DNA of 64,000 nt, from the NCBI GenBank assembly GCA_944347775.1, contig CALVMT010000091.1:47335-111334 (forward strand). Direction: 5' to 3'. The notes under the pieces are model-generated. The model made no database searches. It saw nothing but the letters and a program-made list of their open reading frames with translations, and had not been told where the DNA came from. The position numbers and the translations under genes are program-made. The number at the start of each line of letters is the position of its first letter. Positions within the stretch are counted from its first letter, which is position 1. Shown in pieces: positions 6,265-22,343 of this stretch. The DNA is from an uncultured Clostridia bacterium (GTDB lineage Bacteria > Bacillota > Clostridia > Christensenellales > Christensenellaceae).

Positions 6265-6307
6265 AAAAAGAAACTGACCGTTTAATTTACGGTCAGTTTC
6301 TTTTTTA
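6265..6307. terminator. Bidirectional terminator between the repair operon and nagA
   Basis: GAAACTGACCG (6270-6280) pairs with CGGTCAGTTTC (6290-6300). An A run precedes and a T run follows, so it can serve both converging transcripts. Confidence 0.88.
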
Positions 6308-7444
6308 ATTTAATTCATACTCAATTTGGCCGCGGATATATGTTTTTAACAACTGCAAATCCTTAGACAAAAGAACAAAGTCGGCTTTTTTTCCAATTTG
6401 AATCGTACCGATAGAGGAGTCTCCGATGGCTTTAGCAGGATTATACGTCCCCAGTTTTAATGCATGTTCTAAAGAAACATCTGTTTCCTTTAATAAATTG
6501 CGGATACCAATTAAAGGAGAAATAATAGAACCGGCTAATCTTCCGTCATCCGCCATATGCGCGGCACCATCCTTGACATAAATCTTCTGACCAGCTAATT
6601 GGAAAAAGCCTTCCCCTTGATGAGCAGGTTCTAATGCATCCGAGCAAATAAAAGTTTTATCAAAACCTTTTGCTTTCATAATTAGTTTGGCTGCATATTT
6701 GTTGATGTGATGCAAGTCCGGGATGAACTCACAGGTAATACGGTCATCAGTGAGTGTCACGCTGATTGCACCTTCTTTTCTATGATGAAATGCATACATC
6801 CCATTAAAAGTGTGTGTAACTATACTGAGCCCTTGTGCAATGGCTTGTTCCATATCGCTAGCATTTGCGTCCGTATGAGCTGCACTAACCAATATATTTT
6901 TTTGCGCCAAATATTGAATTAGTTGCATACCGCCTTTTTTTTCAGGCGCCAAGGAAACACGCCGGACGATATCTTCATTATCACCAACCATCTTTTTATA
7001 ATTTTCCAGTGTAGGATTTTGCAACATGGGGATGGCATGTGCTCCTCGATTGTCAATATTAAAGAATGGCCCTTCTATATGAGCACCTAAAATACGTGCA
7101 CCATGTGTATTATGTATCATTTCAGATTTAACTTCACTGAGAAAATGGTTAATTTTTTCAAAGGAGTCCGTAGCGTTTGTAGGACAAAACGAAGTTGTCC
7201 CTACACTTGGCAGATGTTTAACGAGATGAGCAGTACCGCCGGGCGTCAAGACATCCATACCAAAACTTCCGTGGATATGCAGGTCAATAAATCCCGGACA
7301 TAATATTGCACCTTTTGCATCAAAAGCATCTGATAATTCGCAGTGCTCATATAGTTGTTGAATTAATCCATTTTCAAAGCGTATTGCGGTGACAGGAATA
7401 AAGATTTCTCCATTAAAAATTCGAGCATTTTTTATAATAGGCAT
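6305..7444 (-). CDS. nagA: N-acetylglucosamine-6-phosphate deacetylase
   Basis: Removes the acetyl group from GlcNAc-6-phosphate in amino-sugar catabolism and peptidoglycan recycling. The 379 aa include amidohydrolase features: PGFIDLHIHGSFGMD, the metal/catalytic Glu in GAHIEGPFF, SAAHTDAN, THTFNGM followed by HHRKEG, and the catalytic Asp in CSDAL. Two motifs differ from textbook forms: AHT replaces the usual GHT/GHS, and PDLHHI replaces the usual DGxH block. Start ATG at 7444 is preceded by GGAGGA. No nagB or PTS gene is adjacent; it stands alone, converging with the repair operon and diverging from the T-box transcript. Confidence 0.9.
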   Translation of the reverse strand: MPIIKNARIFNGEIFIPVTAIRFENGLIQQLYEHCELSDAFDAKGAILCPGFIDLHIHGSFGMDVLTPGGTAHLVKHLPSVGTTSFCPTNATDSFEKINHFLSEVKSEMIHNTHGARILGAHIEGPFFNIDNRGAHAIPMLQNPTLENYKKMVGDNEDIVRRVSLAPEKKGGMQLIQYLAQKNILVSAAHTDANASDMEQAIAQGLSIVTHTFNGMYAFHHRKEGAISVTLTDDRITCEFIPDLHHINKYAAKLIMKAKGFDKTFICSDALEPAHQGEGFFQLAGQKIYVKDGAAHMADDGRLAGSIISPLIGIRNLLKETDVSLEHALKLGTYNPAKAIGDSSIGTIQIGKKADFVLLSKDLQLLKTYIRGQIEYELN

Positions 7445-7546: not shown

Positions 7547-7576
7547 TTGACAATTACTTTATTGGTGTGTTATCAT
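7547..7576 (+). promoter_or_regulatory. Promoter of the T-box transcript
   Basis: A perfect TTGACA (7547-7552), an 18-base spacer and TATCAT (7571-7576) with an extended -10 TGT just before it. It is placed to start transcription at about 7583, at the T-box 5' end. Confidence 0.75.
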
Positions 7577-7584
7577 TATTACAA

Positions 7585-7864
7585 TTTTAATGGGCGATGA
7601 CGAAGAGGGTCGAAATTGGAGCTTAAAGAGAGTTGACGGATGGTGTGAGTCAATAGCGGAAAATTTCAATGACTGGTCACTTCCGAGCCGGAGAGCAGAA
7701 AGCAGAAAGTGCAAGTAGAGCTTCCCGTGAAGCTGCGTCAAGGCGATGGGTTTGATAGAACCCTTGAGGTGGCATACATTTGTATGCAATTTGAGTGGTA
7801 CCGCGGATATTGAAATTATTTTTATTTCCGTCTCAAAGAAATTTTCTTTGAGACGGTTTTTTTG
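7585..7864 (+). promoter_or_regulatory. T-box riboswitch leader, probable tRNA-Val specificity
   Basis: The landmarks are in order: a Stem I start-like GCGATGACGAAGAG (about 7592-7605), the AGAGAG and GGTGTGAGTC distal Stem I motifs, a specifier region GGTCACTTCCGAG (7675-7687), the T-box GAGTGGTACCGCGG (7793-7806), then a terminator hairpin 7828-7856 (CCGTCTCAAAGAA with its complement) and a T run. The codon best placed for reading, followed by the usual purine, is GTC (7676-7678), valine. The base after TGG in the T-box is T, which pairs with discriminator A; tRNA-Val normally has A73, while tRNA-Trp and tRNA-Ser (the codons in the other two frames) have G73. The controlled gene starts 26 bases downstream. 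Confidence 0.87.
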
Positions 7865-7889
7865 TCCCTTAAAAAGGAGGAGTGAATAC

Positions 7890-10172
7890 ATGTCGCAAAT
7901 GACAGGTTTGGCATTTAAGTTGCAGGAAATGGCAGGACGAATTAAGAGCTTGCGGGAAATTGTAGAGTTGACGCCGGCACAAATGGCTGAAAAGACGGGT
8001 GTTTCAGTAGAAGAATATATTCGCTGTGAACAGGGAAAAGAAGATTTAAACTTTGCCTTTCTATATCGTTGCGCATTGGCACTTGGTGTGGATGTAACAG
8101 ATATTATTGAAGGTAGTAGCCCGAATCTCAGTTCTTATATGGTAACGAGAAAAGGAGAAGGGCAGCGAATTGAACATGCGCATGGGATGACGTATTATAA
8201 CTTGGCTCCACGGTTTAAAAATAGAATTGCAAACCCTCTATACGTTCGAGCGGAATATAGCGAACAGGCGCAGTATAGCGATATTGAATTGACGACACAT
8301 CGTGGACAAGAATGTGATATCATTATTGAAGGAAAGCTGAAAGTACAAGTTGGTGAACATATTGAAGTTCTTGGCGAGGGAGACAGTATTTATTACGATA
8401 GTGCAACACCGCACGGTATGATTGCCGTAGATGGAAAAGATTGTTTATTTTATGCTATTGTATTAAGTCCGGATGGAGAAGTTCAAAATCAGCCTGTAGA
8501 ATATATTGATGCACCTGTTGCACCGATAGAACAACAGCAGCGTATTTATGAGAATTTTATTCTCCCTGAGGAAAAAGATGGTGCCCTTCAGGCGATTTCA
8601 TTTAAAAACGAAGATCACTTTAATTTTGCTTATGACATTGTTGATACATTAGCCGCAACGAAGCCTAATAAATTGGCCATGCTGCATGTTGATGCAGATA
8701 AGACGGAGAGACGCTTTAGTTTTGAGGACATGAGCAGAAATTCTTCTCGGGCTGCAAATTATTTTAAAGCGTTGGGTATCAAGAAGGGTGATCGTGTTAT
8801 GTTGGTTTTAAAAAGGCACTATCAGTTTTGGTTTGCAATTCTTGCTCTTCATAAAATAGGGGCTATTGCGATTCCGGCGACAAATCAGTTGCAGCAAAAG
8901 GATTTTTCTTATCGCTTTGAAGCAGCTGGTGTGAGTGCAATTCTGTGTACTGCAGATGGGCATACTGCCGAACAAGTTGATTTGGCTGCGGCGGAGTGTG
9001 GAAATTTGATCAAACAGAAAATTATCGTTGGCGGAAAAAGGGAAGGTTGGCATAATTTTGATGAAGAATATGTGATGTATCGCAGTAGATTTGAGCGCCC
9101 CAAAAAAGAATGTCCTGAGGGAGAAGACCTGATGCTGATGTTTTTTACATCAGGGACAACAGGATATCCTAAAATTGCAGCACATAATTTTAAATATCCA
9201 TTAGGTCATTTTGTGACAGCGAAGTATTGGCATTGTGTTGATCCGGAGGGGTTGCATTTAACAATTTCGGATACGGGATGGGCGAAAGCATTATGGGGAA
9301 AATTATATGGGCAATGGCTTTGCGAAGCGGCAATATTTGTGTATAATTTTGATCGGTTTGATGCACACGATATTTTGCCGATGTTTGCAAAGTATCATAT
9401 TACGACATTTTGCGCACCGCCGACGATGTATCGTTTTATGATCAAAGAAGATCTTTCTAAATTTGATCTTAGTTCGATTAAGCATGCGACAATTGCGGGG
9501 GAAGCACTTAACCCCGAAGTGTTCCATCAATTTAAAAAAGCTACGGGGCTTTTACTAATGGAAGGCTTTGGCCAGTCAGAAACGACGGTAGCAATTGGTA
9601 ATCTTGTTGGAATGAAGCCCAAAGTTGGTTCAATGGGTAAACCCGTTCCTTTATACGATATTGATTTGTTGACAACCGATGGGCGCAGCGCGGAAGTAGG
9701 AGAAGTGGGTGAGATTGTGATTAAAACAAAAGATCATATTCCGTGTGGCTTGTTCCGGGGGTATTATCATGCTGAAGAGAAAACAAAAGAAAGTTGGCAT
9801 GACGGATATTATCACACAGGAGATACGGCATGGAGAGATGAGGATGGTTATTATTGGTATGTAGGAAGAGTAGATGATTTGATTAAATCTTCCGGTTACC
9901 GTATTGGGCCTTTTGAAATAGAAAGCGTCATTATGGAATTGCCATATGTGTTAGAATGTGGAGTTTCTCCTGCGCCGGATCCTATACGCGGACAAGTTGT
10001 TAAAGCCAGTATTGTTTTGACAAAGGGAACAGAGCAGACAGAAGAATTGAAAAAAGAAATACAAAATTATGTCAAGAAGCGTACAGCTCCTTATAAATAT
10101 CCAAGAATCGTTGTATTCCGCGAAGAATTGCCTAAAACAACCAGTGGTAAAATTATACGTAATCAATTGTAA
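7890..10172 (+). CDS. XRE-HTH/cupin/AMP-binding acyl-CoA synthetase fusion
   Basis: A 760-aa three-part protein. Residues about 14-70 form an XRE helix-turn-helix; about 130-200 form a cupin barrel (HRGQECDIIIEGKL, GDSIYYDSATPHG); about 230-760 form an ANL-family acid:CoA ligase. The ligase has the P-loop FFTSGTTGYPK near residue 418, GFGQSETT, YHTGDTAWRDEDGYYWYVGR, and catalytic Lys in TTSGKIIRNQL at the C-terminus, closest in style to medium-chain/Acs-type synthetases. I start at ATG 7890, which follows AAAGGAGG; the longer open frame from 7746 lies inside the T-box. Usually an XRE-cupin regulator and a ligase are separate genes; here they are fused and under T-box control. The acid substrate is unknown; branched short-chain acids are an inference from the valine T-box. 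Confidence 0.9.
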   Translation: MSQMTGLAFKLQEMAGRIKSLREIVELTPAQMAEKTGVSVEEYIRCEQGKEDLNFAFLYRCALALGVDVTDIIEGSSPNLSSYMVTRKGEGQRIEHAHGMTYYNLAPRFKNRIANPLYVRAEYSEQAQYSDIELTTHRGQECDIIIEGKLKVQVGEHIEVLGEGDSIYYDSATPHGMIAVDGKDCLFYAIVLSPDGEVQNQPVEYIDAPVAPIEQQQRIYENFILPEEKDGALQAISFKNEDHFNFAYDIVDTLAATKPNKLAMLHVDADKTERRFSFEDMSRNSSRAANYFKALGIKKGDRVMLVLKRHYQFWFAILALHKIGAIAIPATNQLQQKDFSYRFEAAGVSAILCTADGHTAEQVDLAAAECGNLIKQKIIVGGKREGWHNFDEEYVMYRSRFERPKKECPEGEDLMLMFFTSGTTGYPKIAAHNFKYPLGHFVTAKYWHCVDPEGLHLTISDTGWAKALWGKLYGQWLCEAAIFVYNFDRFDAHDILPMFAKYHITTFCAPPTMYRFMIKEDLSKFDLSSIKHATIAGEALNPEVFHQFKKATGLLLMEGFGQSETTVAIGNLVGMKPKVGSMGKPVPLYDIDLLTTDGRSAEVGEVGEIVIKTKDHIPCGLFRGYYHAEEKTKESWHDGYYHTGDTAWRDEDGYYWYVGRVDDLIKSSGYRIGPFEIESVIMELPYVLECGVSPAPDPIRGQVVKASIVLTKGTEQTEELKKEIQNYVKKRTAPYKYPRIVVFREELPKTTSGKIIRNQL

Positions 10173-16576: not shown

Positions 16577-17263
16577 ATGAAAGATAAGCCGATATTTAAA
16601 AGATATGTTGTGTTGGTAGGAAATTTTGGAAGCGGTAAGACAGAGCTAGCTCTTAATTTAGCTATGGATGCGGTAAAAAGTGATTCAACAATGTTAGTTG
16701 ATATGGATATTATTAATCCTTATTTTAAATCTTCAAGCAAGCAGGCATTATTGGAAAAAGCAGGAATAAGGGTCATAAAACCAGAATTTGCAAACACCAC
16801 GATGGATGTGCCGACTTTGCCGGCGGAAATTTATGCACCTTTTGATACACGACCAGGAAAAGCTATCTTTGATATTGGGGGAGATCCGGTAGGTGCGGCA
16901 GTTTTAGGGTTGTTGAAAGAACATTTTCTAAAAAATCTTAACGAGAGCGAGTTCTTATTTGTAATAAATCCGTTGCGCCCCATGCAGGAAGATGCAAAAT
17001 CAATTATTGCTTTGATGCGGGAAATAGAATTAAGAGCTTGTGTACATATTACAGGCTTAATTTGCAATGGAAATTTGGCATTGGAAACAGATTTACAGAC
17101 TGTACTTTATGGAGAAAAGATAACAAAAGAAGTCTCGGCACTTACAGGCATTCCGATAAAGTGTATTGCAATTAAACAGGAATTGGTTGATCAATATCGT
17201 GGAAACCAAACCGTTTTGCCAATCTCATTATACATGCGGCCCGAGTGGTTGGATGAAAGGTAA
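16577..17263 (+). CDS. P-loop NTPase (MinD/CobQ-like)
   Basis: 228 aa with Walker A GNFGSGKTE near residue 15, an acidic DMDIINPYF block following the first strand as in the SIMIBI/MinD class, and a Walker B-like IFDIGGDPVG. It probably binds ATP or GTP. It lies immediately upstream of the 2-oxoacid:ferredoxin oxidoreductase genes, and similar ATPases are found at that position in other Clostridia, but a role in assembly or regulation is only inferred. A promoter lies between this gene and the next, so they may be separately transcribed. Confidence 0.7.
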   Translation: MKDKPIFKRYVVLVGNFGSGKTELALNLAMDAVKSDSTMLVDMDIINPYFKSSSKQALLEKAGIRVIKPEFANTTMDVPTLPAEIYAPFDTRPGKAIFDIGGDPVGAAVLGLLKEHFLKNLNESEFLFVINPLRPMQEDAKSIIALMREIELRACVHITGLICNGNLALETDLQTVLYGEKITKEVSALTGIPIKCIAIKQELVDQYRGNQTVLPISLYMRPEWLDER

Positions 17264-17383: not shown

Positions 17384-17590
17384 ATGGCGAAACTTATCAT
17401 CAATGAAGAGGCCTGTAAGGGATGTTCTTTATGCATAAATGTTTGCCCTAAAAAAATATTGCAGCTGCATAAGGAAAAGTTGAATACAAAAGGGTATCAC
17501 CCAATTAGCATTATTGATATGGACGCTTGTATTGGATGTGCATCATGTGCACGGATGTGCCCGGATGTAGTGTTTACAGTTGAAAAATAA
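17384..17590 (+). CDS. 2-oxoacid:ferredoxin oxidoreductase, 2x[4Fe-4S] delta subunit
   Basis: A 68-aa ferredoxin-like subunit with two CxxCxxCxxxCP motifs (CKGCSLCINVCP and CIGCASCARMCP), passing electrons from the catalytic subunits to ferredoxin. I start at ATG 17384, preceded by GAGGTAGGG; an upstream in-frame ATG at 17363 has no good site. The first of four consecutive subunit genes in the delta-alpha-beta-gamma order typical of KorDABC/VorDABC enzymes. Confidence 0.9.
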   Translation: MAKLIINEEACKGCSLCINVCPKKILQLHKEKLNTKGYHPISIIDMDACIGCASCARMCPDVVFTVEK

Positions 17591-17619: not shown

Positions 17620-18684
17620 ATGGCAAAGAAATTGATGAAAGGGAGCGAAGCGATCGGCGAAGCGGCAATCCAAGCTGGATGTAGATATTTTTTCGGCTAT
17701 CCTATAACTCCTCAAAATGAAATTCCGGAATATATGAGCCGCAGACTTCCTAAGGAAGGGGGATGCTTTTTGCAGGCAGAAAGTGAAGTGGCAGCCATTA
17801 ATATGGTCTATGGAGCTGCCGGAGCAGGGGCACGTGTAATGACTTCTTCTTCAAGCCCAGGGATTAGCTTGAAACAGGAGGGGATAAGTTACATTGCGTG
17901 CGCTGAATTGCCGTGTGTCATTGTAAACATGATGCGTGTAGGGCCGGGGCTTGGAGGTATCTTGCCTGCACAGGGAGATTATTTTCAAGCAACTAAAGGT
18001 GGTGGTCACGGAGATTATCATTTAGTAGTTTTAGCGCCGTCGACAGTGCAAGAAGCAGCGGATATGGTAATGGAAGGCTTCGATATTGCAGATACATATC
18101 GTATTCCTGTGATGATACTAGGCGATGGAATGATTGGCCAAATCATGGAACCGGTAGAATTTAAAGTTCACCAAAAACGTCAAGTGCCGGAAAAAACATG
18201 GGCTGCAACGGGATGGTCGGATAAATCTCGTCCAAGAGCAATTATCAATTCTCTATATATTGAAGCAGAACAGATGAAAGCAGTTTCTGAACGTTTGTTG
18301 GCAAGATATGCGCAGATTACTGAAAAAGAAACAAAAGTTGAAGAATTTATGATGGATGATGCGCAATATTGTATTGCGGCATATGGAACAACGGCCAGAA
18401 TTGCGAAAAGTGCGGTGGTTAAAGCACGGCAAATGGGTATTAAAGCCGGTTTAATTCGACCAATTACGATATGGCCCTTCCCATCGGAAGCTTTTGCGAA
18501 AGCGGCAGAGCAAGTGAAGGCTTTCCTTACTGTTGAAATGAGTACGGGACAGATGGTGGAAGACGTACGGTTGGCGGTTGCAGGAAAGAAGCCCGTATAC
18601 TTTAAAGGCACGCTTGGCGGATTTGTTCCGACAACACAGGATATGGTTAATGAATTAGTTAAGTTGACAGAAGGCAGGGAGTAA
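17620..18684 (+). CDS. 2-oxoacid:ferredoxin oxidoreductase alpha subunit (VorB/KorA-like)
   Basis: 354 aa. N-terminal pyrimidine-binding domain: 'GYPITPQNEIPEYM', then 'QAESEVAAINMVYGAAGAGAR' and SSSPGISLKQEGISY. C-terminal transketolase-like domain ends with KGTLGGFVP. In Clostridia this subtype is usually labelled 3-methyl-2-oxobutanoate (VorB) or 2-oxoglutarate oxidoreductase; substrate cannot be settled from sequence. Separated by 2 bases from the beta subunit. Confidence 0.88.
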   Translation: MAKKLMKGSEAIGEAAIQAGCRYFFGYPITPQNEIPEYMSRRLPKEGGCFLQAESEVAAINMVYGAAGAGARVMTSSSSPGISLKQEGISYIACAELPCVIVNMMRVGPGLGGILPAQGDYFQATKGGGHGDYHLVVLAPSTVQEAADMVMEGFDIADTYRIPVMILGDGMIGQIMEPVEFKVHQKRQVPEKTWAATGWSDKSRPRAIINSLYIEAEQMKAVSERLLARYAQITEKETKVEEFMMDDAQYCIAAYGTTARIAKSAVVKARQMGIKAGLIRPITIWPFPSEAFAKAAEQVKAFLTVEMSTGQMVEDVRLAVAGKKPVYFKGTLGGFVPTTQDMVNELVKLTEGRE

Positions 18685-18686
18685 AC

Positions 18687-19424
18687 ATGGCAATAGTATT
18701 TAAAAAGACGAAGATGCTTACTGATGTGCCGTTTCATTATTGCCCTGGTTGTACCCATGGCATTGCGCATAGATTGGTAGCAGAGTGTATTGAAGAGCTG
18801 GGAATGGAAGATAAAGCAATTGGCGTTGCACCGGTTGGATGTGCAGTGTTTGCCTATAATTACTTTAACTGTGACATGATGGAAGCGGCACACGGCCGTG
18901 CGCCTGCGGTAGCTACGGGAATCAAACGTGTACATCCGGATAAGTTGGTATTTACTTATCAGGGAGATGGAGATTTGGCTTCAATTGGTACGGCAGAAAT
19001 TGTTCATGCAGCAGCCAGAGGAGAAAAAATAACAACTATTTTTATTAATAATGCAATTTATGGGATGACAGGAGGGCAAATGGCGCCTACTACTTTGGAA
19101 GGACAGGTTACGACAACTTCGCCTTATGGTCGCCAAAAAGAGCATTGTGGATTGCCTATTCGTATGTCTGAATTGATTGCTACATTGGATGGAGCTTGTT
19201 ATGTAGAACGGGTATCTATGCACGATGTTCCTAATATTATCAGGGCAAAGAAAGCTATTAAGAAGGCGTTGATTTGCCAAATGGAGCGGAAGGGGTTTTC
19301 GTTTATTGAATTGCTTTCTACCTGCCCGACAAACTGGGGTATGACGCCGACGGCTGCGCTGACTTGGCTAAAGGAAAACATGATTCCTTATTATCCGTTG
19401 GGTGTAAAAAAGGAGGTAGAGTAA
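18687..19424 (+). CDS. 2-oxoacid:ferredoxin oxidoreductase beta subunit (TPP-binding)
   Basis: 245 aa. Binds thiamine diphosphate and magnesium through GDGDLASIGTAE...NNAIYGMTGGQ, the classical GDG-X(~26)-N motif, and contains the start motif 'FHYCPGCTHGIAHRL'. No extra ferredoxin domain is present, so electrons leave through the delta subunit. Lies between alpha and gamma with almost no spacing. Confidence 0.9.
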   Translation: MAIVFKKTKMLTDVPFHYCPGCTHGIAHRLVAECIEELGMEDKAIGVAPVGCAVFAYNYFNCDMMEAAHGRAPAVATGIKRVHPDKLVFTYQGDGDLASIGTAEIVHAAARGEKITTIFINNAIYGMTGGQMAPTTLEGQVTTTSPYGRQKEHCGLPIRMSELIATLDGACYVERVSMHDVPNIIRAKKAIKKALICQMERKGFSFIELLSTCPTNWGMTPTAALTWLKENMIPYYPLGVKKEVE

Positions 19425-19425
19425 G

Positions 19426-19962
19426 ATGCTGCATCAAATTATTAGCGCGGGATTTGGAGGGCAAGGGGTGTTATTGCTCGGACAGCTGATTGCTTATGCT
19501 GGTTTAAAAGAGGAGAAAAATGTCTCTTGGCTTCCTTCTTATGGCCCGGAAATGCGCGGTGGTACAGCTAATTGCTGTGTTGTTGTTTCGGACGAAGAAG
19601 TCGGAAGCCCGGTTGTGACTGAGGCAGATGTTGTTGTAGTGATGAACAGACCTTCGTTTGAAAAATATGAAAATAATGTTGTGCCTGGTGGGAAACTGTT
19701 TGTCAACAGTTCATTGATTGATTTAAGATCGAACAGAACAGATATTGAGGTGTATTATGTGCCGGCTAATCATATTGCAGACGAATTAGGTAATGGTAGA
19801 GTGGCAAATATGGTTATGTTAGGTGCTGTTTTGAAAAAGACACACATTGTTTCTCCGAAAACAGCTATAGAATGTTTGGCGGCTTCTTTTGGAGAAAGAA
19901 AAGCACATTTGATTCCGATTAATGAGCAGGCATTGGAAAAGGGAGCCGAAGTTGTTCGCTGA
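19426..19962 (+). CDS. 2-oxoacid:ferredoxin oxidoreductase gamma subunit
   Basis: 178 aa with the gamma-domain signature 'GFGGQGVLLLGQLIAYAGL', then SYGPEMRGGTANCCVVVSD. It begins one base after the beta stop and completes the four-subunit complex. The operon ends at a hairpin beginning 13 bases after the stop. Confidence 0.92.
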   Translation: MLHQIISAGFGGQGVLLLGQLIAYAGLKEEKNVSWLPSYGPEMRGGTANCCVVVSDEEVGSPVVTEADVVVVMNRPSFEKYENNVVPGGKLFVNSSLIDLRSNRTDIEVYYVPANHIADELGNGRVANMVMLGAVLKKTHIVSPKTAIECLAASFGERKAHLIPINEQALEKGAEVVR

Positions 19963-20109: not shown

Positions 20110-20955
20110 ATGTATAAAATCCTGGAAAAGAAAGTATTGGGTCCCCAAATTACGAAAATGGTAATTGATGCTCCGGCGATTGCAAAGAAAGCTGAGCCGG
20201 GTCAGTTTATCATTTTGCGTATTGATGAAAAAGGTGAACGTATTCCTTTAACCATAGCGGACTTTGATAGAGAAAAGGGAGCAGTCACAATTATTTTTCA
20301 GATTGTCGGAAAAACGACAACACAGCTCAACGAACTGTCAGAGGGTGAAGAATTATTAGACTTTGTAGGGCCGCTTGGAAAGGCGTCTGAGTTTGAACCA
20401 GGGATAAAAAAGGTTGCGGTGATTGGCGGCGGTTTGGGAACGGCGATAGCATATCCACAGGCAAAGAAACTTTCAGCTATGGGTGTTGAAGTTGATATGA
20501 TAGCTGGTTTTAGAAATACAGACTTTATTATTCTGGAAGAAGAAATGAGGGCTAGTTCTAAAAACCTTTATATCACAACTGATGATGGAAGTAATGGTAG
20601 AAAAGGATTGGTTACGGATGTCCTTAAAGAGCGTATTGAAGCAGGAGAACAATACGACTTGGTAATTGCAATTGGTCCGTTAATTATGATGAAATTTGTT
20701 TGCCTGTTGACAAAAGAATATGGAATTAAGACAATTATTAGCATGAATCCGGTTATGATTGATGGAACGGGGATGTGCGGAGGCTGCCGGATAGTAGTAG
20801 GGGGAGAGACAAAATTTGCATGTGTTGATGGCCCTGATTTTGACGGACATCTGGTTGATTTCGATTCTGCGATGCGTCGGCAGTCGATGTATCGTGAACA
20901 AGAACAACAAAGCCTGCGTGAGCATCAATGCAGAATGGAGGGGATGAGCAGATGA
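20110..20955 (+). CDS. nfnA: NfnA-like FAD/NAD-binding [2Fe-2S] subunit
   Basis: 281 aa, ferredoxin-NAD reductase fold. It has a flavin domain (PGQFIILRIDEKGERIPLTIAD), an NAD domain (AVIGGGLGTAIAYPQAK) and a C-terminal [2Fe-2S] cluster with GMCGGCRIVVGGETKFAC-DGP. With the next gene it should form NfnAB, the electron-bifurcating NADH-dependent reduced ferredoxin:NADP oxidoreductase; sulfide dehydrogenase SudB is a homologue that cannot be fully excluded. The stop overlaps the next start (ATGA). Confidence 0.88.
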   Translation: MYKILEKKVLGPQITKMVIDAPAIAKKAEPGQFIILRIDEKGERIPLTIADFDREKGAVTIIFQIVGKTTTQLNELSEGEELLDFVGPLGKASEFEPGIKKVAVIGGGLGTAIAYPQAKKLSAMGVEVDMIAGFRNTDFIILEEEMRASSKNLYITTDDGSNGRKGLVTDVLKERIEAGEQYDLVIAIGPLIMMKFVCLLTKEYGIKTIISMNPVMIDGTGMCGGCRIVVGGETKFACVDGPDFDGHLVDFDSAMRRQSMYREQEQQSLREHQCRMEGMSR

Positions 20956-22343
20956 AGAGGAATATGTCATTAGAAAAAGTTGTAATGCCTGAACGTGACC
21001 CTCGTGAGCGCAGCACAAATTTTGAGGAAGTTGCATTGGGCTATACAGAAGAAATGGCATTAGAGGAAGCAGCACGTTGTTTAGGTTGTAAAAATATGCC
21101 GTGTGTTTCAGGGTGCCCCGTGAATGTAAAGATTCCGGAATTTATTGCTCTTGTACAGGAAGGCGAATTTATTAAAGCGTATGAAAAAATTAAAGAGACG
21201 AACAGCCTTCCAGCTATTTGTGGTCGCGTTTGCCCACAGGAAAGTCAATGTGAGGGGAAATGCGTGCGTGGAATCAAAGGGCAACCGGTAGGTATAGGTC
21301 GTTTGGAACGTTTTTGTGCTGATTATGCAATGCTGCATGGTTATGAAAGCATACAAAATATTGAAAAAAATGGAAAAAAAGTAGCAGTTATAGGCTCTGG
21401 CCCTGCCGGTCTTAGCTGTGCAGGTGACATGGCTAAGAAAGGTTACGATGTAACTGTGTTTGAAGCTTTTCATGTTGCAGGAGGTGTGTTGCAATATGGT
21501 ATCCCACAATTTCGTTTGCCTAAAGAACTGGTTAATGCGGAGATTAACGGCCTAGAAAAGATGGGTGTAAAAATAGAAAAGAATATGGTCATAGGAAAGA
21601 TTCTTTCTCTTGAAGAATTAAAACAAGCGGGTTATGAAGCAATTTTTATTGGCTCTGGAGCCGGATTGCCCAGCTTTATGCATATTCCAGGAGAAAATTT
21701 AAATGGTGTATATTCAGCTAATGAGTTTTTGACTAGAATTAATTTAATGAAAGCTTATAAGTTTCCGGAATATGATACACCGATTAAGCCGTATCATACA
21801 GTTGCAGTCGTAGGCGGTGGAAATGTGGCAATGGATGCAGCAAGATGTGCAAAAAGATTGGGCGCAGAAAAGGTTTATATTATTTATCGCAGAGGCGAGG
21901 AAGAAATGCCTGCCAGACTAGAAGAGGTGCACCATGCAAAAGAAGAAGGAATTGAATTCCGGTTGCTGGAAAATCCGATTGAAATTTTAGGAGATGAAAA
22001 GGGCAATGTAAATGGAATTAAAGATATTAAGATGCAACTAGGTGAACCCGATGCATCTGGAAGGAGACGCCCAGTTCCTATAGAAGGCAGCGAATATAAA
22101 CTTGATGTCGATGCAGTAGTTATTGCAATTGGGCAGAGCCCTAACCCCTTACTAAAGCATGCAACACCGGATTTAAAAACTAAACCGTGGGGTGGCATTG
22201 AAGCAAATGAAGATGGCCTTACAAGCATTGAGGGAGTATATGCAGGTGGCGATGCTGTAACAGGTGCGGCAACAGTCATATTGGCAATGGGAGCTGGCAA
22301 GAAAGCTGCGGCTGCAATGGACGCATATTTGCAAAATAAATAA
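20952..22343 (+). CDS. nfnB: NfnB-like NADPH/FAD subunit (GltD homologue)
   Basis: 463 aa. N-terminal Cys-rich domain for two [4Fe-4S] clusters (CLGCKNMPCVSGCPVNVKIP and CGRVCPQESQCEGKC), then two Rossmann folds: VAVIGSGPAGLSCAGDMA (FAD) and VAVVGGGNVAMDAARCAKRLGA (NADPH), with the C-terminal AGGDAVTGAATVILAMGAG FAD closure. Start ATG 20952 overlaps the nfnA stop and has GAGGGG upstream. No glutamate synthase large subunit is encoded nearby, which with nfnA next door favours Nfn over GltD. Confidence 0.9.
   Translation: MKRNMSLEKVVMPERDPRERSTNFEEVALGYTEEMALEEAARCLGCKNMPCVSGCPVNVKIPEFIALVQEGEFIKAYEKIKETNSLPAICGRVCPQESQCEGKCVRGIKGQPVGIGRLERFCADYAMLHGYESIQNIEKNGKKVAVIGSGPAGLSCAGDMAKKGYDVTVFEAFHVAGGVLQYGIPQFRLPKELVNAEINGLEKMGVKIEKNMVIGKILSLEELKQAGYEAIFIGSGAGLPSFMHIPGENLNGVYSANEFLTRINLMKAYKFPEYDTPIKPYHTVAVVGGGNVAMDAARCAKRLGAEKVYIIYRRGEEEMPARLEEVHHAKEEGIEFRLLENPIEILGDEKGNVNGIKDIKMQLGEPDASGRRRPVPIEGSEYKLDVDAVVIAIGQSPNPLLKHATPDLKTKPWGGIEANEDGLTSIEGVYAGGDAVTGAATVILAMGAGKKAAAAMDAYLQNK

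Follow-up and report, generated by a model that had tools for sequence, protein, structure and literature searches.

In a 64,000-nucleotide stretch of DNA from an uncultured Clostridia bacterium of the family Christensenellaceae (contig CALVMT010000091.1, positions 47,335 to 111,334; hereafter the window), a valine-type T-box leader precedes a gene that joins a helix-turn-helix (HTH) domain, a cupin and an acid:coenzyme A (CoA) ligase. Very probably, uncharged tRNA-Val switches on this predicted isobutyrate:CoA ligase, whose product, isobutyryl-CoA, then yields valine through reductive carboxylation and transamination. In such a scheme, the leader would act as a transcription-attenuation T-box for tRNA-Val. 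Pairing of the uncharged tRNA with a GUC specifier and a UGGU motif would stabilize the antiterminator and let RNA polymerase reach the ligase gene. The ligase would then convert environmental isobutyrate to isobutyryl-CoA, with ATP going to AMP, after which 2-oxoisovalerate:ferredoxin oxidoreductase (VOR) would combine isobutyryl-CoA, CO2 and reduced ferredoxin into 2-oxoisovalerate, and a branched-chain aminotransferase would turn the latter into valine. A paralogue under an isoleucine T-box would follow the same route from 2-methylbutyrate, and a third ligase, under a leucine T-box, would perhaps serve isovalerate. We infer the tRNA binding, the substrate and the direction of the pathway, along with any role of the HTH-cupin head. 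According to an account of rumen fermentation (PMC7356843, citing Allison and co-workers), isobutyrate is a precursor of valine, 2-methylbutyrate is a precursor of isoleucine and isovalerate can be carboxylated to leucine.

The leader claimed in the original prediction is borne out on the plus strand, to which all window features given below belong unless stated otherwise. Positions 7588 to 7838 align by cmscan to the full Rfam T-box model RF00230 (1-219) with 89.0 bits and an E-value of 4.8e-20, a significant full-length match though 4 bits under the gathering score of 93, which is an annotation threshold. Because 89.0 bits falls below that score, the leader goes unreported when the whole window is scanned at default settings. 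Stem I, with its distal loop, AG bulge and specifier loop, spans 7585 to 7690 according to the Rfam alignment and a second model, R1, which was built from 47 Stem I RNAs picked by a 3' motif read by eye and aligned with MAFFT by sequence alone. R1 finds the leader's Stem I (L009:1196-1301) with 79.8 bits, the sequence being one of its own seeds. The specifier columns of Rfam's own alignment place the valine codon GUC at 7676 to 7678, the triplet named in the original prediction, and the 47-RNA alignment keeps it in the specifier loop as well, with a covarying helix starting one base 3' of the specifier and compensatory changes in 12 of the 14 predicted pairs of that helix set. A different codon in the specifier loop is ruled out by the Rfam alignment and the covarying helix. 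Among 120 Stem I matches from public loci, described below, pairing cells reach 97.9% versus 78.1% in shuffles, in an alignment fitted to the model. The E-value and the covariation together rule out a chance T-box.

The antiterminator (7790 to 7838; predicted fold -10.5 kcal/mol) pairs UUUGAG-(UGGUACC)-CGCGG with CCGUCUCAAA and holds the T-box bulge UGGUACC at 7796 to 7802, in which UGGU can pair with the ACCA end of a tRNA. A terminator-like hairpin of 13 bp (7828 to 7856; -18.2 kcal/mol) is followed by a T-run at 7857 to 7863. Both structures share CCGUCUCAAAG and are therefore mutually exclusive, the 5' arm of the terminator being contested. The antiterminator is the weaker of the two, as expected if the tRNA must stabilize it. 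A tRNA-Val(GAC) whose discriminator base is A, with CCA behind it, is present in the genome (30 of its 49 tRNA loci were taken into the check) and fits both GUC and UGGU, in agreement with the earlier proposal that the T after TGG points to a discriminator-A tRNA-Val. Upstream, a consensus scan alone identifies a sigma-70-like promoter at 7547 to 7576, TTGACA-18-TATCAT, its second hexamer preceded by TG (11 of 12 matches).

The window's genome contains ten T-boxes at E <= 0.001, with specifiers read off Rfam alignments and targets named by NCBIfam or Pfam. One of them, on contig C24, belongs to valS (valine--tRNA ligase over cut-off) and also reads GUC; since valS retains this separate T-box in the same genome, a local rearrangement of the valS leader is ruled out as the source of the leader in the window. 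Others precede ileS, asnB (AAC), proS, a TrpX-like transporter gene (UGG; 254 bits, below cut-off) and a TrpB-like gene (also UGG), and a tenth lies at C59:15163. The ileS specifier is AUC when read by eye, beginning two bases before the CAC that R1 reads, and because of this wrong triplet R1 is less reliable outside ligase leaders. On C59, an AUC leader stands before a split pair consisting of an HTH-cupin gene and a ligase gene. On C72, a CUC leader is followed by a LeuA-like gene (HMGL-like, LeuA_dimer) and then by a fusion of a triosephosphate isomerase (TIM) barrel and a ligase (AP_endonuc_2, AMP-binding). Each of the three branched-chain amino acids, valine, isoleucine and leucine, thus has a T-box ahead of a gene or operon that encodes an AMP-ligase. 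The TIM barrel-ligase may be for isovalerate, and since a different ligase stands under the Leu T-box, isovalerate seems a less likely substrate than isobutyrate for the ligase in the window. The combination of a Leu T-box (CUC or CUG), a LeuA-like gene and a xylose-isomerase-like TIM barrel-AMP-ligase occupies L044:4031-7968 (C72) and is also seen in, for example, L155, L162, L184, L189 and L219. The aconitase family has a single match in the window's genome, inside one 768-aa frame, and classical LeuC may therefore be missing.

The gene behind the leader runs from an ATG at 7890 to 10172, with an AGGAGG ribosome-binding site at 7875 to 7880 read directly from the sequence. Its product of 760 amino acids is composed as originally described, a DNA-binding head, a cupin and an acid:CoA ligase being found by Pfam as HTH_3 in residues 7-74 (7908 to 8111; 23.8 bits, cut-off 23; helices in the AlphaFold2 model), Cupin_2 in residues 83-192 (8136 to 8465; 39.9 bits), and AMP-binding (197.9 bits) with AMP-binding_C (74.8 bits) in residues 219-760 (8544 to 10169). 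The AlphaFold2 model has a mean predicted local distance difference test (pLDDT) score of 78.5 and presents the HTH, cupin and ligase parts in that order. Cupin residues H137, E141 and H175 are invariant in the 16 sequences compared, and ligase residues W447, W464, K466, W469 and C508 are identical in all 117 ligase genes compared. The nearest solved structure is 3etc, Macs of Methanosarcina acetivorans (662 bits), and the protein has the features of a Macs-type AMP-forming acyl-CoA synthetase, with both ligase domains and the 3etc acyl-pocket residues present, among them those of the Lys256-Cys2(98) link and Trp259. The best NCBIfam match is MbcS (NF047394) at 430 bits against a curated cut-off of 850, which leaves the ligase outside that equivalog.

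The recurrence of such leaders ahead of this ligase was followed in two samples. Among relatives, 151 genomes including that of the window were searched, and 131 ligase instances were examined among the matches listed, some listed ones being omitted by choice. A Val or Ile T-box precedes 68 of these 131, divided into 25 Val and 43 Ile; 60 have none and 3 have too little upstream DNA. The second sample comprises 80 public loci, the best of at least 594 candidates, all metagenome-assembled by title and many from ruminants, in which 101 of 114 ligase genes possess a T-box of their own (62 Ile, 39 Val), and 8 of the 13 without one come second in a tandem. Leaders consistently placed before valS, the alternative considered at the outset, did not appear; it is the ligase leader that is conserved across relatives. 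Applied to non-seed sequences of the public loci, R1 gave 120 Stem I matches in 75 of the 80 loci, with specifiers AUC (62), GUA (34), GUC (5), GUG (1), CUC (13), CUG (3) and others (2). The full set of 202 matches includes 82 from loci that contain R1's seeds, the duplicates L001, L006 and L147, and leaders of other genes from the window's own genome. In 25 of the 80 public loci an Ile-T-box ligase comes directly before a Val-T-box ligase; in 7 the second ligase lacks a T-box, and 1 locus has the Val-type gene first. A Leu T-box is present in 16 of the 80 loci, on the opposite strand in 9.

A single residue of the ligase follows the specifier. When 117 ligases (116 fused and 1 unfused) were sorted by specifier alone, position 465 was the only column that separated them fully, with Ala in 50/50 Val-type and Gly in 67/67 Ile-type genes; the Ala465 codon of the window lies at 9282 to 9284. 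On 30 fresh unfused genes the rule gave Ala in 10/10 Val-type and Gly in 18/20 Ile-type, and the pooled figures are 60/60 and 85/87. Of the 68 T-box instances among the relatives, 51 (21 + 30) entered this comparison and 17 were left out. T-box-less second genes of tandems have Ala465 in 11/11 cases (the truncated gene L192 was left out), and other T-box-less ligase genes have Gly465 in 10/11. In the structure, position 465 aligns between Trp254 and Lys256 of Macs, beside the acyl pocket, where Macs has Gly; the numbering offset of 3etc was checked via the Lys256-Cys2(98) link in the structure title. The extra methyl of Ala465 would suit the shorter isobutyrate. The preferred substrate of the M. 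acetivorans enzyme is 2-methylbutyrate (PMC10455477).

The remaining enzymes of the proposed route are encoded further downstream. The original prediction had noted a 2-oxoacid:ferredoxin oxidoreductase about 7 kb away, and the genes were indeed located at 17620 to 19962, starting 7.4 kb from the ligase. The alpha subunit (17620 to 18684) is VorB-type by NF005507, at 552 bits against a curated cut-off of 399, and is accompanied by a beta subunit (18687 to 19424; PorB_KorB family, below cut-off, 67-73% identical to public-locus copies) and a gamma subunit (19426 to 19962; PorC_KorC family, below cut-off). A P-loop ATPase gene (16577 to 17263) and a gene for a VorD-like ferredoxin (17384 to 17587) precede them, 39% and 56% identical to the counterparts in L172. 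In L155 and L172 the locus is full: an Ile T-box with its ligase, a Val T-box with its ligase, the P-loop ATPase, VorD, VOR alpha, beta and gamma, and a branched-chain aminotransferase. A Leu T-box and a LeuA-like gene lie near both cassettes, as does a TIM-ligase in L155. Of the 80 public loci, several of which end too early to tell, 33 have VOR downstream of the ligase and on its strand, and in 20 of those 33 a homologue of the branched-chain aminotransferase lies no more than 4 kb away; all three aminotransferase genes scanned exceed the NCBIfam equivalog cut-off. The window keeps the cassette order of ATPase, VorD and VOR, but 6.4-7.4 kb from the ligase, and the 7.4-kb gap is also present in the close homologue in G002. 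The aminotransferase of the window's genome is 60% identical to the branched-chain aminotransferase of the cluster.

Three further observations concern the surroundings of these genes. The small P-loop ATPase adjoins VorD in all four cassettes read (window 16577 to 17263, L155, L157 and L172:8294-8959) and is possibly an assembly factor, the L172 copy having weak ParA/Mrp-like matches. Downstream of VOR, window positions 20110 to 22343 hold a gene pair with PRK06222 and gltA over cut-off, which looks like an NfnAB-type electron-bifurcating transhydrogenase and could balance reduced ferredoxin for carboxylation. On the minus strand, the divergent neighbor nagA (N-acetylglucosamine-6-phosphate deacetylase; 6305 to 7444) has no evident link to the ligase.

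The normal route to valine appears to be missing where the Val-type ligase occurs. The families of ilvC (PF01450) and ilvD (PF00920) have no match in the window's genome or in any of 6 congeners, and both are present in all 14 control genomes. Across the relatives, ilvC occurs in 0/25 genomes with a Val-T-box ligase versus 51/126 others (Fisher p 1.3e-5, uncorrected for kinship). Matches to the ilvD family occur in 5 of the 25, at 366-381 bits, below the strong ones at 419-468 bits. VorB exceeds its cut-off in 24/25 Val-T-box-ligase genomes and in 44/44 Ile-T-box-ligase genomes; the latter count differs from the 43 Ile instances by G057, whose leader lies more than 1.3 kb from its ligase match. 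The earlier idea that valine charging is connected with the formation of branched-chain acyl-CoA is strengthened by the Ile-specific paralogue, by the nearby VOR and aminotransferase genes of many loci and by the lack of an ilvC or ilvD match. Four genomes of one genus (G030, G078, G097 and G114; loci L034, L030, L033 and L035) carry ilvC and Ile-T-box ligases; none of their examined ligase instances has a Val T-box, and they look as if salvaging isoleucine only.

Several points weigh against a tRNA-Val-controlled synthesis of valine from isobutyrate. The leader falls short of the Rfam gathering score, and among the relatives the 60 ligase instances without a T-box include 11 fused homologues of 53-69% identity. 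The ligase and VOR of the window do not form one operon, being 7.4 kb apart, the aminotransferase sits on another contig, and of the 55 public loci with 4 kb or more of sequence left downstream, only 28 show VOR on that side. Because the assembly consists of 172 contigs and is 90% complete, the case for missing ilvC and ilvD depends on the relatives; among the 44 genomes whose ligase has an Ile T-box, 9 carry ilvC, and one Val-type genome (G067, 71% complete) has no VorB over cut-off. Two genes of genus g48, L252 and L253 (from G085 and G120), combine an Ile T-box with Ala465; their genomes also carry ilvC. Lastly, a tree built without column 465 needs six specifier changes, of which well-supported branches force only two, and with only two well-supported independent co-changes of specifier and residue a sign test is not significant. 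The independence of the specifier-residue agreement is therefore modest.

Other functions for the ligase can be envisaged. It might mainly supply branched-chain acyl-CoA primers for fatty acids, valine shortage serving as a proxy for primer shortage. MbcS, the acyl-CoA synthetase that is its best NCBIfam match (albeit at 430 bits, below the cut-off), feeds branched-chain fatty acid synthesis. This use is improbable as the principal one given the VOR and branched-chain aminotransferase genes beside ligases in many loci and the lack of an ilvC match in all 25 Val-T-box-ligase genomes; both uses can coexist. It is equally improbable that the protein is chiefly a transcription regulator with its ligase domain as a sensor, in the manner of BirA-type trigger enzymes. 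The HTH-cupin head with its invariant H137, E141 and H175, and the split relatives that retain an HTH-cupin gene adjoining the ligase, would be explained, but the ligase residues listed above are the same in 117/117 genes, and a search for an operator shared upstream of promoters, using a crude block shuffle, gave no inverted repeat above shuffles except A/T runs. Catabolism from valine to isobutyrate in the oxidative direction, yielding ATP or reduced ferredoxin, is a known way for anaerobes to ferment amino acids and would draw on VOR and AMP-forming ligases, which can in principle be reversible, but it is highly improbable here, since a T-box switches genes on with uncharged tRNA, the wrong sign for catabolism, and a cell without an ilvC or ilvD match would burn an amino acid possibly beyond its own synthesis.

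With synthesis of valine from isobutyrate as the preferred function, the system can be set beside known ones. The T-box riboswitches of valS, ileS, ilv and leu operons share with the leader in the window the Stem I specifier, the UGGN bulge, the antiterminator/terminator pair and the tRNA logic, and the genome's own valS (GUC) and ileS leaders are of this classical kind. The target differs: classical leaders control aminoacyl-tRNA synthetases, de novo biosynthesis genes or transporters, and this one stands before an acid:CoA ligase fused to an HTH-cupin head. The suggestion of a new T-box target class holds for the kind of gene; it does not hold for the purpose, which is not wholly new because the target's function is still amino-acid supply via a non-canonical route. 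Macs (3etc) resembles the ligase domain at 52% identity (Foldseek), with aligned Trp, Lys and Cys and a branched short-acid substrate, but is a 580-residue chain lacking the HTH-cupin head and has Gly where Val-type ligases have Ala. BirA-type ligase/repressors likewise place a DNA-binding head on an acyl-adenylate-forming ligase, but their ligase fold is unrelated, and the protein in the window has an added cupin and a DNA-binding head predicted from sequence. The same chemistry as proposed here was described for reductive carboxylation in the rumen (Allison and Peel 1971; Robinson and Allison 1969; Allison 1966; as cited in PMC7356843); that work is physiology, and what is proposed here is genes, gene order and tRNA control. 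No paper connecting T-boxes with acid:CoA ligases or with reductive carboxylation was found in the open-licence literature searched, which includes PMC2494555, PMC7778990 (TBDB), PMC10620731 and PMC5794164, the main T-box surveys and the TBDB entries lying outside this scope. The T-box and the old rumen chemistry are already known. What appears new in the papers searched is the connection of the two, the existence of separate Ile and Val ligases and the agreement of specifier and residue.

A wider interpretation is offered tentatively, namely that gut and rumen Clostridia without de novo branched-chain synthesis possess an isoacid-salvage island. Three T-boxes, one for each branched-chain amino acid, would each report the substrate of their own ligase, Gly or Ala at position 465 would tune the enzyme to 2-methylbutyrate or isobutyrate in keeping with the specifier codon, and the HTH-cupin head would add control at the DNA level by sensing the acid or the acyl-adenylate. 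If true, the island would explain in genetic terms why fiber-digesting bacteria of the rumen have their classical need for isoacids.

If synthesis of valine from isobutyrate under tRNA-Val control is true, tRNA charging would be coupled to the consumption of an acid that other microbes give off. A bacterium with no normal valine pathway found in its genome could then regain the amino acid from this fermentation product. The T-box specifier would amount to a written label of the ligase substrate, so that enzyme specificity could be predicted from RNA, a directly testable code. The genes would be candidates for the rumen branched-chain volatile acid physiology of the 1966-1971 papers (as cited in PMC7356843), with relevance to isoacids as feed supplements and to gut cross-feeding.

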